Source: a virus. From it: 43,735 nt of DNA. Within the stretch, counting starts at the first letter, position 1. Each line of letters begins with the position of its first letter. The notes beneath the pieces were generated by a model, which was not told the DNA's origin, did no database searches, and saw only the letters and a list, made by a program, of their open reading frames with translations. Shown here in pieces: positions 1,191-37,853 of the stretch. The position numbers were made by a program, and so were the translations under genes. Location of the stretch: positions 1-43,735 of IMG/VR virus record IMGVR_UViG_3300035162_002268; one strand, written 5' to 3'.

Positions 1191-1873
1191 AACAAAACAA
1201 ATACATAATGAACCCCGATGAAAACAAGCACCAATTCGCTACGCGTATTGTTGTAACAGAAGACCGACCGATGAACGCGAAAGCCATTCACGATTGCGTG
1301 GATGAACGAAGTGTTGACATGACAATGGAAGAGATGCAAGCCCATGTTTGCTACGCTGTCAAGTTACAGAACCTTGACAAGACTCGCGTTGTGAAGAACC
1401 ATGAAACAGGTGGAACGCATGTCGTCTATCACCCGTTGGGTCAACACCCTATTGGTGATGAGATACCACAACCACTGTTCAACAAGAAGAAACATCTTCG
1501 CCCCGTCATTGATTTCAAAGGTGAGGACATCACCCCCGACCTTAACACCACTCACACTTCTGCAAGGATAGGTTGCACAACAAACATCGGTGCAATTGCT
1601 GACTCATTAAAAGAGAAAGGTGTTGCACCAATCCTACACAAGAAGGGTGCGATGGATAACTTTGACCCCGATGCCTTTGTGGTTAAGCGAACACCTATCA
1701 TCAAACCAAGTGGCGTGCCTTCAAACATTCTTGATGTTCTCTCCGTGTATCACGGTAAGACTGTTGAGCAAATCGAGGACATCATCATGTCGAAGATTAG
1801 AACTGCTCGCGTTGACAACAAGACTCTCAAGCACACCTCTCTATTCACCGTTCTCAAGGAGTTGGTTGGATGA
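1187..1873 (+). CDS. Hypothetical protein (228 aa)
   Basis: The frame is open upstream, but ATG at 1187 (MKQNKYIMNPDE) is chosen because it forms an ATGA overlap with the preceding small gene and has GGAGG about 9 bases upstream. It is hydrophilic and soluble. The last 50 residues (from about SNILDVLSVYHGKTVEQIEDIIMSK) look helical and could be a small DNA- or protein-binding domain. No family is recognised. Confidence 0.7.
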   Translation: MKQNKYIMNPDENKHQFATRIVVTEDRPMNAKAIHDCVDERSVDMTMEEMQAHVCYAVKLQNLDKTRVVKNHETGGTHVVYHPLGQHPIGDEIPQPLFNKKKHLRPVIDFKGEDITPDLNTTHTSARIGCTTNIGAIADSLKEKGVAPILHKKGAMDNFDPDAFVVKRTPIIKPSGVPSNILDVLSVYHGKTVEQIEDIIMSKIRTARVDNKTLKHTSLFTVLKELVG

Positions 1874-2903: not shown

Positions 2904-3160
2904 TGACTTGGCCTTCTATTCTAACAGCGAACAACTCAAGATACTATCGAACAATTGATGGTGTTGAACAAGAAGTTGCACCACCAACTTACAGATTCTT
3001 TGGTGAAGACATTCAAGGTCGCGGTGTCTATCGCGTCACTGAAACAAAAGGATTGCTTGTTACCTCAAATGGGTTTCAACATTCTTGGATACCGTGGCGC
3101 ACTTTCGTTGCCATAAACAAGCACGCGCTTAACCAATACTCACAGGTTGTGGTTGTATGA
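2903..3160 (+). CDS. Hypothetical small protein (85 aa)
   Basis: ATG at 2903 shares one base with the preceding stop (TGATG) and has GGTGA at 2892-2896 at good spacing. In-frame ATG 2897 is the alternative but lies too close to that site. The strand-rich pattern (YRTIDGVEQEV, YRFFGEDIQGRGVYRVTET, HSWIPWRTFVAI) suggests a small beta-barrel. Function is unknown. Confidence 0.6.
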   Translation: MTWPSILTANNSRYYRTIDGVEQEVAPPTYRFFGEDIQGRGVYRVTETKGLLVTSNGFQHSWIPWRTFVAINKHALNQYSQVVVV

Positions 3161-3858
3161 CTTTCAGCACACAAGACTTTCACACACTGCTTGACGACAA
3201 GCACACAGTCATCAGCATGGCGACCAACAACACAGGGGTTGGTGAATACATCATCGTCATGAATGGATTTGTTCGACCTCAAAGTCCTTTGAAGGATAAG
3301 TTTCTCAACCCACACAGGAACATTGCAAACATACCACCACAGTATGTTCGCTCTTGTCCTCGTTGCGATGGTGATTGGGAAGCACTGACCTACGACATCA
3401 AGAATGGTAAGATGCAGAACACTCATTACATTTGTTCCGCGGGTTGCGGAGTAAGTATCTGCTCACTTACCTTTGACAAGTTCGCTCGCTACCATTCACC
3501 GGAAGCAGTTGACCAACTCATCGCTGAACAAGATGCTCAAGACATCGAAGACAACCGGATGACCGAAGAAGAGATTGTCTTCTCCGAGTTTGAAGGTGAC
3601 CTGCATGAAGAGATTGCAGATTTGATAGACGCGCAACCCAATCTTCATATACCGTCAGCGGAATCTAATTCTATGACGCGCGCCGCAGAAGATAATACTA
3701 TGCCGGACCTTAACACCATGCCGGACCTTAACACCATGCCAACCATGTTCCGCACCAAGACTTACGACATGGTTGCACGCAGTGTTGACCCATTGAACAC
3801 CATGCCGGACTTGTTCGGCACATCACAGTCCACGGACACAAAAAATAAGGAGGAATAA
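3157..3858 (+). CDS. Zinc-ribbon protein with C-terminal NTMP repeats
   Basis: 233 residues. Residues about 68-105 contain a zinc-ribbon-like set (CPRC, then CSAGC and a further Cys). An acidic helical region follows. From residue 180 the chain carries four NTMP(D) tetrapeptide repeats. Embedded among them is FRTKTYDMVARSVDPL (codons 198-213), encoded by a 49-bp block identical to one in the next gene at 4557-4605. This makes the C-terminus a partial mimic of the downstream protein. Only two bases separate this gene from the next. Function is unknown; a partner or regulator of the downstream DUF932-like protein is an inference from the shared segments. Confidence 0.7.
   Translation: MTFSTQDFHTLLDDKHTVISMATNNTGVGEYIIVMNGFVRPQSPLKDKFLNPHRNIANIPPQYVRSCPRCDGDWEALTYDIKNGKMQNTHYICSAGCGVSICSLTFDKFARYHSPEAVDQLIAEQDAQDIEDNRMTEEEIVFSEFEGDLHEEIADLIDAQPNLHIPSAESNSMTRAAEDNTMPDLNTMPDLNTMPTMFRTKTYDMVARSVDPLNTMPDLFGTSQSTDTKNKEE
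3694..3810 (+). repeat. NTMP-coding repeat array, copy A
   Basis: Four in-frame copies of a unit reading roughly AACACCATGCCGGAC, translated N-T-M-P-D. Three are adjacent. The fourth, at 3796-3810, follows the 49-bp block shared with the downstream gene. The first unit (3694-3705) is a synonymous variant. Confidence 0.85.
3748..3796 (+). repeat. 49-bp perfect direct repeat, copy A
   Basis: Identical over 49 bases to 4557-4605 and read in the same codon phase in both genes, giving FRTKTYDMVARSVDPL. The flanking bases differ at once on both sides. The copies are 809 bp apart. Confidence 0.95.
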
Positions 3859-3860
3859 GT

Positions 3861-5966
3861 TTGACAAAAACCCCGAAACCCGAAGCCCCGCGCACCATTG
3901 TAATTGGTGTAGCGCAAGAAGAAAAGAACGACATGCAGGTGGTTGCATCCAACGCATGGGAAGGACACAAGTTCATCCCCAACGCGTGTATCAAACACAC
4001 TGTCACACATGGTGAGCAGACTGTGTTCTTGTTGGAAGACGCGCAAGTTAACAGTGTCAACATTAGTGTAGCATCAAACTACACTTACGACACTGAAAGC
4101 GATGCAGTCCTACAAGACATTGCTGACATGTGGAATGAGTTCGGTGTCCTAACAGACCATGCCGAACCATCCACTGACGACGACACCATGCCGGACATTG
4201 GATTGAACACCATGCCAAGCCTCGGCAGTGACAACACCATGCCAGCCATGAACACCATGCCAGCCATGAACACCATGCCGGAGATTGGATTGGTCGGTGC
4301 AGTTGAAGATGATGAAGTGCCTAACTTTGGTGCGGCACTTGGCATCGAACTTGCTGACCATGTTCTCGCTGACAACGAATCCGAACAAGACTCGGAAGCG
4401 AAGCAGACCAAGTTGAAACTGTCTGCTGTTCAGCAAGCCGCGAAAGCCCGACAAGAACGCTACGCCGCATCCCAAGTCATCAAGGATGGTATGGCTTCCG
4501 ACATCAGCAAAGCAATGGTTGATGGTAAGCGACACGAAAATGTTGGTGCATGGAACTTCCGCACCAAGACTTACGACATGGTTGCACGCAGTGTTGACCC
4601 ATTGACAGGTGTTAGTGAATACCACGAAGTGTCATCCGAGAAAGGTGACACTCGCATTCGCGCAGTCTTCAACCCAACACTTGCGACAAAAGACATGCCT
4701 CTCGGTCACTGTTTGAACCGAGCCATCGGCCCATCTTTCGTTCCCATCGAACATCCCGACATCTTCAATCCAATTATTGAAACGGTGCGCGGCATCAACA
4801 CAGCCAACGGATGCGTCTATGTGAAAGTCCCAACAGGTGAAGACACCTTTGCATACGAACTCAAGTCGGGAACTGAACTCATCACTCACGATGCGTTCTC
4901 TTTCAACAAGGGTGCGCGTGCTATGATTAACCTTGACCTCACAGGTTTCGGTAACAAGACACGCAACGAATCGGCTAAGTCACTCAACAACTTTGGCTAT
5001 GTCAATCTGTCTGCTAACAGAATCAGCGACGCGCTTGTCGAAGAAGAGGGTGGTCACCGAGTCGGTGTATCTATCATCAACTCTCACGATGGTAAGTCTG
5101 CTCTTCAAGCATTCATGACTGTGCTTCGCACCTACTGTGGTAACCTTGCCGCACGCGGTGGAGTTCAAGCACTGCTCATGGCTGGCGACCGAACAAAGAT
5201 TCGACACATGGAAGGTGTTGTTTCTCAATTCGACCCCGAACAATTTGCTGGACAACTCGGCAGTGCGCTTGTTGAATCTCGTAAGAACTTGGTTGCTATG
5301 CACATCTTACGACACATACCTATCGAAGCGAATGTGTTTGACAAGGTGATGACTGCGTTCTCTTCTCACGGACTTGTATCTCAACCAACACTGACCATCT
5401 CCGCTGGTGACATTGACCAAATCCCGAAGGATAAGAATGGGAACATGATTGTTAGTGCCGCCATGATGACAAAGGATGCTGTCAAGGTCGGACACGGACA
5501 CGCTTACAATGCTATGATGCAGGGTTGGATGAACCCCGATGTGGACTATGTTGCTATGGACAAGACCGAAGCAGACAAGGCCGCAGTCGGTAGTGCATTC
5601 CACGCCGCGCAAACACTAACCGGAACGATTACTCACAACCCTATCTTCACTGATGGTAAGAGAGTTCTCCACGGACAGAAGCAAGGCATTGAACTGATGA
5701 TGAAGAAGTCGGACAAAGCGGCTAACCTTCTTGAAGACATTGCTATGGGTGCTGTCAATGCTTACGCCGCACACACTGGTGAACCTGTTGATGACTTCGA
5801 TGCTATGGGTCAGTGGTTGGCAGACAACCCCGACCAATTCAAGATTCCTTACAGCGCGAAAGCAAATGGTAAGAAAGTGATGACTGCTGTGACAGACATC
5901 CCTGCCTTCCATGACACATGGAACTACTCAATCAAGAAAGTGAAGGTCGCGGCTCCTACCAATTGA
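3861..5966 (+). CDS. DUF932-like phage/plasmid protein with N-terminal NTMP repeats
   Basis: 701 residues. The start is TTG at 3861, supported by a strong AAGGAGG eight bases upstream. Residues about 1-105 form a unique N-terminus. Residues 108-140 hold five N/D-TMP repeats, then a charged helical linker (about 150-230). From FRTKTYDMVARSVDPL at 233 to the end the protein resembles the large DUF932 family of phage/plasmid-like proteins, including the typical block NSHDGKSALQAFMTVLRTYC followed by a GNLAAR-type sequence. DUF932 has no firmly assigned biochemical role. Position suggests early expression, and the good ribosome site suggests high expression. The gene is followed by the largest structured gap of the window. 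Confidence 0.7.
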   Translation: MTKTPKPEAPRTIVIGVAQEEKNDMQVVASNAWEGHKFIPNACIKHTVTHGEQTVFLLEDAQVNSVNISVASNYTYDTESDAVLQDIADMWNEFGVLTDHAEPSTDDDTMPDIGLNTMPSLGSDNTMPAMNTMPAMNTMPEIGLVGAVEDDEVPNFGAALGIELADHVLADNESEQDSEAKQTKLKLSAVQQAAKARQERYAASQVIKDGMASDISKAMVDGKRHENVGAWNFRTKTYDMVARSVDPLTGVSEYHEVSSEKGDTRIRAVFNPTLATKDMPLGHCLNRAIGPSFVPIEHPDIFNPIIETVRGINTANGCVYVKVPTGEDTFAYELKSGTELITHDAFSFNKGARAMINLDLTGFGNKTRNESAKSLNNFGYVNLSANRISDALVEEEGGHRVGVSIINSHDGKSALQAFMTVLRTYCGNLAARGGVQALLMAGDRTKIRHMEGVVSQFDPEQFAGQLGSALVESRKNLVAMHILRHIPIEANVFDKVMTAFSSHGLVSQPTLTISAGDIDQIPKDKNGNMIVSAAMMTKDAVKVGHGHAYNAMMQGWMNPDVDYVAMDKTEADKAAVGSAFHAAQTLTGTITHNPIFTDGKRVLHGQKQGIELMMKKSDKAANLLEDIAMGAVNAYAAHTGEPVDDFDAMGQWLADNPDQFKIPYSAKANGKKVMTAVTDIPAFHDTWNYSIKKVKVAAPTN
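4182..4280 (+). repeat. NTMP-coding repeat array, copy B
   Basis: Five in-frame copies of the (A/G)ACACCATGCC(A/G) unit. It includes an 18-bp tandem duplication reading N-T-M-P-A-M twice (about 4233-4268). It is the same peptide array as at 3694-3810 in the upstream gene. Confidence 0.85.
4557..4605 (+). repeat. 49-bp perfect direct repeat, copy B
   Basis: Partner of 3748-3796. Here it encodes the start of the DUF932-like domain, which suggests that this copy is the original and the upstream one the transplanted copy. Confidence 0.95.
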
Positions 5967-35258: not shown

Positions 35259-37853
35259 TCAAGGTATTGGTCCACCTAACGCCACCAATTGCGCGGCTAT
35301 TCTTTGAATTGCTGTTTCCAAATCGGGAGGGGGGGCATGAACCCAATTAGGGGGGGCCGCTGGGTTGTATGGTTCAGCACCACCGAGTCCGGCTGGCACA
35401 GCGGCGGCGGCTAAAACACCTTGAGCCGCAGTAGCATAAGCCGCTGTGTTGAATGCTTTAACCTGCGCAAGATTGGTCACTTCACTATCCATGAGCGCAC
35501 CCGCGGCGGTAACATTTGCTGTATCTGTTACATCAGCATTGTCTTCAATGTTGAGAAGTGTGTGGACTTCTGCTTTGGTGATACCCGATGCAAACACAGG
35601 CGTTCCACTGTTATCTTCAATAGCAGGAGCAGTCCCACCACCACCACCACCGCTTGCCGCGATAGTTCCATCAGCCGCTATGGTGATATTCGTTCCCGCT
35701 GTTAATGCGGCGACAACATTGGCTGTGTCTGTTACATCCGCGCTCGCTTCAATCGCATTCAGTTTGCTGTGGTCTGCATCTGTGAACACATTGGAATCAG
35801 TCGCCGCTTCAACAGCCGCGCGGATTTCAGCATTGCTTTGGTCAGCGGTAGCCGAAGCCTCTATTCCATCGAGTTTAGTCCCATCAGTCGCTAAATCTCT
35901 CCCGTCAACTGTGCCACCCGCTAAGATATTACCTGTCACATCTAATGTTAGAGATACCGCGGCGTGACCCGTTATAGAAGTAATCCTGTTCGCTTCAACA
36001 CCATCGGCCCCTGCGTCTAAGGTTATGAGTTTTACATTGCCATTAGTGTCACCCGCGGCGTAAATCTCCATATTGTCACCCGCGTTATACACTTGCAACT
36101 TACCCGGCCCTGTGCTGTAACCAACTTGTATTGCATTACATTTGATGTTTGTAGGGACTATGAGTGATTTTCCTACGGCCATTGTCACATCACCCGCAAG
36201 AACAAGAGTAGCCTCACCCTCAACGGCGGCGATGGCGGCGGCATCGTTGTAGGCAGTAGCACCTGCGGCGATAGCATCCAACTTTGATTTGTCACCATTA
36301 GCGAATGCTCCTTCGGATGGAGGTTGTTGCGCGCTGTCAGCCTTTGCGCCTTGTGCGGCTGTTGCATAATCGGATGTGTCGAACGCTTTGACTTGAGCGA
36401 GGTTTGTGACTTCACTATCCATTAACGCACCTGCGGTGGTTACATTGGTTGCGTCTGTCACATCTGCGTTGTCTTCAATGTTGAGAAGTGTTTGGACTTC
36501 TGCTTTGGTGATACCTGTGGTGAACGCTGGTGTGCCACTGTTATCGTAAATTGCGGGTGCAGGTCCAGCCGCGATGATAGCCGATTGATAATCGCATCGC
36601 ACCCATACACTACCTTCGTAAATGAATGTAGCGCGGTGCGCAGGACCAACGGTTTCATTAGAACCACTCAAATCATCAAAGATGATATTACCTAACCCGT
36701 TGTTGCATACTTCGATAGTATGACCTTCGGGGAACTTGTAATTCGTTCCATCTTTCTCCGGTTGAAGAGTGATGTCAACACCCGCGTTTGGTGCAAGCAT
36801 GAAGAAGGAATCACCTTCTGCGGTGACGACCCATGTGCCATTTGTTGTTAGCGCGGTGCTTGTTGCGTCAACTCCCTTACCTTGCAGACGAACCGAATAG
36901 TGTCCTGTCTGTTGGTTGTTGCGCCCTGCGAAATAGAATGCGTCAGCGACATGTCCTGTTCCACGGTCTGCTCCGCGAGATGGTCCTTGACCATACCCTG
37001 CGTCACTCGACCCCGGTGGACTTTGAGCAAATGAACCGTAGCGCGGATGACTTACCCAATTGACATTGACAGTATCCGAAACAGCCAGTTCACCGTTGTC
37101 GTTGTGAACCGCATTAAGATGAGCGATAGTGTTGATACCTTGTGCATCACCATCTGCGATTTCAGCAACGGAAGCACCTGCTCCCGTCGAAACGCTTCCT
37201 GTTGATAAAGGCACTCGGTAATCCGCCGCGCTCTTAAGGAATATACGCTTGTCATTTACCTCAATGATGTTGAGATTGTTTGAGCCACCACCACTTGCAA
37301 TGTATTGAACTCTCACTTGAGCAAGCACAATAGCCTTTGCGTTGTCACCGTTTGATAGTGTTTTGTAATTGATGAGATATTGGTTGGACGCGGAGGGATA
37401 TACACCTGTTGTAGTATCAACCGGACTGCCGCCTTCGTAGTGGACTTTGTTGACTCCACCGCTTGGTGCAATATAGATTGTGTAAATTGCTTCTTCATTT
37501 GCTGAAAGAGATAGCGCGCCACTTCCGTGTGAGCCATCGTTGAGGTCGAGTGTGATTGAATCTCCTACACCAGTTCCGAACTCATACAGCGCACCATCAA
37601 GGACAGCAAAGCCACCACTTACGGTGAGTGTGCTTGCTGTCGCACGCACCATAGAGCCGGGTTGATTACCAGTGTTGGTATCATTACGCGTGGAGCCAAA
37701 GGCTCCGTCTTGGTATCGAATGATACCGTTGCCGTGAATACCTTGTAGCGCGTTCGTCAAAGTTGAAGGGGAGAGTGAATCCCCATCCCGTAGGCCATCT
37801 TCACCAAGCGTATTTTGCGCGGCTGTATGCCCTGCTATGTTATCAGTTGCCAT
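35259..37853 (-). CDS. Repeat-rich tail fibre protein
   Basis: 864 residues. The N-terminal 200 residues are strand-rich (SMVRATASTLTVSGGFAVLD) and likely attach to the baseplate. The C-terminal half has phage-fibre repeats, for example LLNIEDNADVTDATNV and KLDGIEASATADQSNAEI. A unit of about 75 residues (from AI-DNSGTP to KAF...YATAAQG) occurs twice, near 36346-36563 and 35413-35632. A Gly6 run precedes the second. Such repeats form trimeric fibre shafts for host recognition. ATG 37853 is preferred, AGGTGA being 5 bases upstream; ATG 37856 and GTG 37862 are in frame. Confidence 0.85.
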   Translation of the reverse strand: MATDNIAGHTAAQNTLGEDGLRDGDSLSPSTLTNALQGIHGNGIIRYQDGAFGSTRNDTNTGNQPGSMVRATASTLTVSGGFAVLDGALYEFGTGVGDSITLDLNDGSHGSGALSLSANEEAIYTIYIAPSGGVNKVHYEGGSPVDTTTGVYPSASNQYLINYKTLSNGDNAKAIVLAQVRVQYIASGGGSNNLNIIEVNDKRIFLKSAADYRVPLSTGSVSTGAGASVAEIADGDAQGINTIAHLNAVHNDNGELAVSDTVNVNWVSHPRYGSFAQSPPGSSDAGYGQGPSRGADRGTGHVADAFYFAGRNNQQTGHYSVRLQGKGVDATSTALTTNGTWVVTAEGDSFFMLAPNAGVDITLQPEKDGTNYKFPEGHTIEVCNNGLGNIIFDDLSGSNETVGPAHRATFIYEGSVWVRCDYQSAIIAAGPAPAIYDNSGTPAFTTGITKAEVQTLLNIEDNADVTDATNVTTAGALMDSEVTNLAQVKAFDTSDYATAAQGAKADSAQQPPSEGAFANGDKSKLDAIAAGATAYNDAAAIAAVEGEATLVLAGDVTMAVGKSLIVPTNIKCNAIQVGYSTGPGKLQVYNAGDNMEIYAAGDTNGNVKLITLDAGADGVEANRITSITGHAAVSLTLDVTGNILAGGTVDGRDLATDGTKLDGIEASATADQSNAEIRAAVEAATDSNVFTDADHSKLNAIEASADVTDTANVVAALTAGTNITIAADGTIAASGGGGGGTAPAIEDNSGTPVFASGITKAEVHTLLNIEDNADVTDTANVTAAGALMDSEVTNLAQVKAFNTAAYATAAQGVLAAAAVPAGLGGAEPYNPAAPPNWVHAPPPDLETAIQRIAAQLVALGGPIP
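35413..35632 (-). repeat. Tail-fibre duplicated segment, C-terminal copy
   Basis: About 73 codons, from AIEDNSGTPVFASGITKAEV to YATAAQG, similar to the copy at about 36346-36563 in both protein and DNA. Boundaries are approximate. Confidence 0.75.
36346..36563 (-). repeat. Tail-fibre duplicated segment, internal copy
   Basis: About 73 codons, from AIYDNSGTPAFTTGITKAEV to YATAAQG, partner of 35413-35632. Differences are mostly silent or conservative, as expected for an older duplication or repeated exchange. Confidence 0.75.

Follow-up and report, generated by a model that had tools for sequence, protein, structure and literature searches.

Short peptides shared by unrelated proteins within a virus and different between related viruses

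The Z and D genes and the virus that carries them

In this study, we focused on two neighbouring genes on the plus strand, Z (3157-3858) and D (3861-5966), in a window of 43,735 nucleotides that makes up the whole IMG/VR virus record IMGVR_UViG_3300035162_002268 (G000). Z encodes a zinc-ribbon protein that consists of a conserved head and a disordered tail. Its zinc-ribbon cysteines (CPRC, C93 and C97; 3355-3447, plus strand) are invariant in an alignment of six Z proteins, and no family match was found for Z. The tail (residues 137-233) lies almost entirely below pLDDT 50 in an AlphaFold model of moderate quality (mean pLDDT 62). It carries an array of the tetrapeptide NTMP (3694-3807, plus strand; copies at 3694, 3712, 3730 and 3796), which we call a tag. 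Orthologues of Z are situated immediately upstream of D in the relatives L004, L005, L006, L007 and L080, and a divergent one is present in L081.

The D protein is composed of an N-terminal beta domain, a linker that bears the tag, and a C-terminal domain. The beta domain (residues 1-96; 3861-4148, plus strand) evolves faster than the C-terminal domain. The linker (residues 97-161) is below pLDDT 50 in a model of the same moderate quality (mean pLDDT 62), and its tag array (4182-4280, plus strand) is followed immediately on the 3' side by a conserved acidic box, DDEVPNFG (4308-4331, plus strand). The earlier note on this DNA counted four NTMP copies in Z and five in D; the count for Z is correct, and D has four NTMP (4206, 4233, 4251 and 4269) plus one DTMP (4182). 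By Pfam score and fold, the C-terminal domain belongs to the DUF932 family (PF06067; TIGR03299, phage/plasmid-like), to which D adds the beta domain and the tag linker. The match to PF06067 (5067-5354, plus strand) scores 28.3 bits against a curated cutoff of 23 and includes a helix, ALQAFMTVLRTYCGNLAAR, that is resembled by a small protein of the relatives, S. Eight of nine aligned D proteins match PF06067 at E up to 0.01. A Foldseek search of BFVD with the D model gave ten matches at E <= 0.001, some of them named DUF932 or TIGR03299, and a fold search of the PDB with the same model gave no significant match.

The window encodes a family B DNA polymerase, a Cpn60/TCP-1 chaperonin, an SNF2 helicase and a PD-(D/E)XK nuclease. 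Its genes form two opposed clusters, on the plus strand to 31.8 kb and on the minus strand from 31.9 kb, and the minus-strand genes (late module) include tail fibre and baseplate matches. The gene profile published for the magroviruses of marine Poseidoniales (PMC10768690) is matched in the window by the family B DNA polymerase, the virus's own replication genes and the chaperonin, as well as by the separation of the replication genes and the virion genes into opposed clusters. No named magrovirus was among the INPHARED matches listed. The group probably consists of marine tailed viruses with an archaeal host; we infer both the magrovirus-type placement and the host of the window from its gene set. 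The minus-strand tail fibre gene contains two near-identical stretches (35539-35585 and 36469-36515) about 930 bp apart, perhaps a duplicated fibre module.

Viral contig searches yielded the D-bearing relatives L004, L005, L006 and L007. A polymerase search and a subsequent search of 50 records added seven further D-bearing viruses, and L091 is an additional partial one. No relatives of D were found in genome contigs or among INPHARED phages. Both Z and D are readable in seven viruses: the window, L004, L005 (locus of record G052), L006 (locus of G053), L007, G008 (L080) and G018 (L081).

Peptides shared by the carriers of one virus and different between viruses

The NTMP arrays are not due to chance: NTMP is the most over-represented tetrapeptide in the window record by a de novo count (8 seen, 0.07 expected), and it was found in no ORF of the record other than Z and D. 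Each of the other six viruses has a different peptide common to its own Z and D: FDMTGATP (FDMTG) in L004, IDWG in L005, LDIG in L006, DDMxIDFG in L007, VSFTF in G008 and xDFDD in G018. A tetrapeptide common to the Z tail and the D linker was present in 7/7 own pairs and in 0/42 foreign pairs, and the true pairing outscored all others among 5040 permutations. This result also held for mechanically cut segments (the last 50 residues of Z and residues 85-170 of D). When wider segments were used, some foreign pairs shared words, and the permutation result weakened to 21/5040, or 306/5040 for pentapeptides; we put this weakening down, in part at least, to a 49-bp copy in the window that places a conserved segment of D in Z. 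The match between Z and D of G008 is weak by alignment score. The de novo word count ranked the tag first in the window, G051, G052, G018 and G028, and no tag was detected in G030 and G046, both of which have D. Enrichments of GPAG and GGGG were rejected as tags, as they resemble common low-complexity sequence.

In more complete relatives, the tag is present on further proteins. LD[VI]G of L006/G053 occurs in Z, D, an SF2 helicase (1026-2660), a virion-module protein, M (86122-87672), and a giant protein (95002-101946), and a sixth protein has related peptides (PTLEV). In L005/G052, the orthologues of all six contain [IV]D[WF]G. The G052 tag gave 11 hits in 6/6 G052 carriers and 0 in those of G053, and the G053 tag gave 10 hits in 5/6 G053 carriers and 0 in those of G052; the tag expressions for the helicase, M and the giant protein were written after inspection, and P-values of these carrier counts are descriptive and not a test. 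G018 has a third carrier, protein X, with DIEDFDDD. In the distant G028, whose D is 26% identical, all 11 occurrences of IPIP among the ORFs examined fall in five proteins: D, the helicase, N, M (assigned as an orthologue only by its position) and a putative clamp, which was recognised by eye and has no family match. In G033, L[DE]SLS is found in D, the helicase and M only. M and the giant protein sit in the late module adjoining the terminase, and neither has a match in Pfam or PHROGs. In the window virus, Z and D are the only visible carriers, and, by analogy with the relatives, the helicase, M and the giant protein would be expected to lie outside its record. The idea that the tag is on every protein was rejected, because the scan finds it on a limited set.

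A separate motif, EPMDxAWxLLK, is constant between viruses and is found in virion-module proteins of G036, G039, G043, G053, G052, G033 and G028, where a single protein can have as many as four copies. The motif may form a helix that serves capsid targeting or scaffold binding.

The tags change quickly. Between G052 and G053, the terminase-like protein beside M is 98.7% identical and the C-terminal domain of D 98%, and the tags on six orthologous proteins have nothing in common. Identity in this pair is 68% for the N-terminal domain of D, 61% for the helicase, 36% for M, 34% for the giant protein and 33% for the sixth protein; the carriers other than D rank among the least similar proteins of the two viruses. 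At the nucleotide level, identity falls to 30% over the Z tail and to 44-52% over the D linker, and recovers to 96-98% in the C-terminal domain. These results show that the carriers share a peptide within a virus and that this peptide differs completely between viruses, even where folded domains are 98% identical. In L005 and L006, the helicase bears its tag at the N-terminus, and in G028 at the C-terminus; this suggests that the tag was added independently.

In L004, Z and D encode their tag copies in nearly identical DNA. In G008, only one of five degenerate codons is alike between the copies of VSFTF; in G018, different codons spell an identical or near-identical peptide; and, most clearly of all, in G033 the tag is written as TTG GAT AGT CTG TCT, CTT GAT TCG TTG TCG and TTA GAA TCA TTA TCA. 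Since some of the matches persist with different codons, selection on the peptide, and not only DNA copying, keeps them. For the same reason, a general reading of NTMP as a DNA site was rejected.

DNA-level captures by the Z gene

The earlier note reported a perfect 49-bp repeat in the same codon phase in both genes, and this is borne out. Positions 3748-3796 (FRTKTYDMVARSVDPL, plus strand), between the third and the fourth NTMP of Z, are identical to positions 4557-4605 (plus strand) at the start of the conserved C-terminal domain of D, at a spacing of 809. Both copies begin on a codon boundary, at codon 198 of the 3157-3858 frame and codon 233 of the 3861-5966 frame. The copying ran from D to Z, because the block is absent from Z of the six relatives and the peptide WNFRTKTYD is native to D of close relatives, being conserved in L004, L005, L006 and L007. 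At its 3' end, the copy in Z continues into 15 nt (ATTGAACACCATGCC) identical to 4202-4216 in the D array, as expected if the copying strand had jumped within D. The perfect identity supports the recent copying event that the note had proposed, and the near-identical tag DNA of L004 likewise reflects recent DNA copying.

The block is not the only one of its kind. In the close relative L004, the Z linker contains an in-frame 142-bp piece of gene Y (L004:1647-1788), in which D is not involved; it is 96.5% identical to part of Y in the window (1538-1679, plus strand). The Y-type protein of two other relatives (G052:5632-6897 and G053:4463-5380) has an acidic motif, VFTFDDDD, which is the same in both viruses, unlike the private tags. 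A small gene, S, lies between Z and D in L004 (1955-2104) and also in the Z-D gap of L005, L006, L007, L080 and L081. In the window, S itself is lost, and its terminus, SQSTDTKNKEE, is now joined to Z (3820-3858, plus strand; TSQSTDTKNKEE), where it matches the end of S in L004. When a profile of S was compared with all ORFs, three S-bearing ORFs came first and D proteins came next (E 1e-4 to 8e-4). With a profile of the D helix, 4/6 S proteins ranked above all of 20,000 shuffles. S may act as a micro-protein mimic of D. Pieces of other viral genes seem to accumulate in the Z linker, and the 49-bp repeat is one of several DNA-level captures by Z and not the device. Such captures could plausibly carry tags from one gene to another.

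Docking and other explanations of the shared peptide

We put the chances slightly better than even that NTMP is a virus-private docking tag, which gathers viral proteins on a shared partner. The tag would be a short linear motif, repeated for avidity, in the disordered tails or linkers of several proteins per virus: D, Z, the SF2 helicase, virion-module proteins and, in one virus, the putative clamp. All of these carriers would bind one partner, tags and partner would change together, and each virus would gather its own proteins into one replication or packaging assembly. The suggestion in the earlier note that NTMP brings two proteins together has gained strength from the relatives, which point to a role wider than Z and D. 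It is possible, if on the unlikely side, that the peptide is each virus's own barcode for a set of replication and virion proteins. A viral hub that co-evolves with it, perhaps the N-terminal domain of D, would read the barcode and so keep the machines of co-infecting relatives from mixing, and all carriers would exchange the barcode within a very short evolutionary time. D would be the best candidate for the hub because no other carrier found is as constant and because its N-terminal beta domain evolves unusually fast; that D is the hub and this domain the tag receptor is a more doubtful proposal. It speaks against docking that a single receptor following motifs as unlike as IPIP, IDWG and LDSLS is hard to picture.

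Several other explanations were considered. Slippage and gene conversion might copy a repeat between linkers without any function, as could be supposed from the near-identical tag DNA in L004 and the window and from the 49-bp and 142-bp captures. However, this neutral homogenisation is contradicted by the differing codons of G033, G008 and G018, the carriers are tens of kb apart and on both strands, and the tags occur without exception in frame and in one small set of proteins, which makes it quite improbable. The earlier note had also envisaged phase variation or protein swapping, in which recombination between the two 49-bp copies would delete 809 bp and fuse Z to D in frame. The arithmetic is correct and the repeat is perfect and in frame, but the copy is present in 0/6 relatives, Z and D are separate genes in 6/6 and no fused Z-D gene was found; a homology that exists in 1/7 viruses is not a kept device, and we regard this explanation as scarcely credible. 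An assembly error or chimera is very improbable as the origin of the insert: a perfect repeat is known here from one assembled contig, but it is in frame at both ends, its 3' end runs on into the 15 nt shared with the D array, and a comparable capture in L004 is non-identical (96.5%). Such an error, if real, would leave the tag finding unaffected.

The remaining alternatives concern what the peptide does. Identical peptides might stack on each other as amyloid-like or low-complexity stickers, without a separate receptor. Such a zipper would directly explain why all carriers have the same sequence, and in several tags (LDIGDITIDVG, VSFTF and IDWG) hydrophobic residues alternate with polar ones. 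Bacterial amyloid signalling sequences (BASS), like RHIM/HET-s motifs, are also common to the products of neighbouring genes and differ between motif families (PMC8086366), and here Z and D share a motif in 7/7 viruses. However, BASS pairs link NLR and Bell-type proteins, whereas the tags join two to six replication and virion proteins across the genome; the carriers are DUF932 proteins, an SF2 helicase and proteins without a family match, and none of the annotated ones was found to contain an NLR or Bell-type domain. The tags also change between close relatives and are not all beta-forming: IPIPIP and NTMP contain proline, LDSLS looks helical, and most tags are in very acidic segments. IPIP, NTMP and LDSLS argue against amyloid formation and against one cross-beta mechanism for all viruses, and stacking is improbable in our view. 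Slightly less probable again is a signal that brings proteins into the prohead or marks a prohead-protease cut. The late-module position of M and the giant protein suits it, and phage T4 puts one short peptide, the capsid targeting sequence, on otherwise unrelated internal head proteins, which are taken to one assembly (PMC9026906). However, the T4 sequence is an N-terminal propeptide that is cut off, whereas the tags are repeated, often at the extreme end of a protein, and are located in the D linker, at the C-terminus of Z and at the N- or C-terminus of the helicase. They also differ in every virus and are found on replication proteins: the helicase, D and Z sit in the replication half of the genome. 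The constant EPMDxAWxLLK of virion-module proteins suits the capsid-targeting role better.

Our preferred reading, docking, relies on a known physical principle, the short linear motif. Replisome motifs such as the PIP box and the SSB acidic tail are short, lie in disordered tails and recruit several DNA proteins to one hub. These motifs are conserved over huge distances, whereas the motif described here is private to each virus. In the open-access literature searched, we came across no report of virus-private tags on groups of unrelated proteins, and we rate as new that the tags are private to a virus and change in concert across the genes of its genome. Binding motifs are usually recognised by their conservation, but these are the same within a virus and different in every virus. 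The pattern probably marks proteins that work together, several of which have no assigned function (the DUF932 protein, Z and the giant virion-module protein), and it offers a way to find interaction partners in uncultured viruses by sequence only. It also raises the questions of how five or six genes can exchange a motif almost simultaneously and which selective pressure favours private tags.

An enrichment of LIYK in relatives without D was rejected as a protein tag because it is mostly located just upstream of start codons. LIYKAT or LIYKGT occurs at several genes of G036, G039 and G041, and the underlying DNA may be a promoter box (TATA-like).
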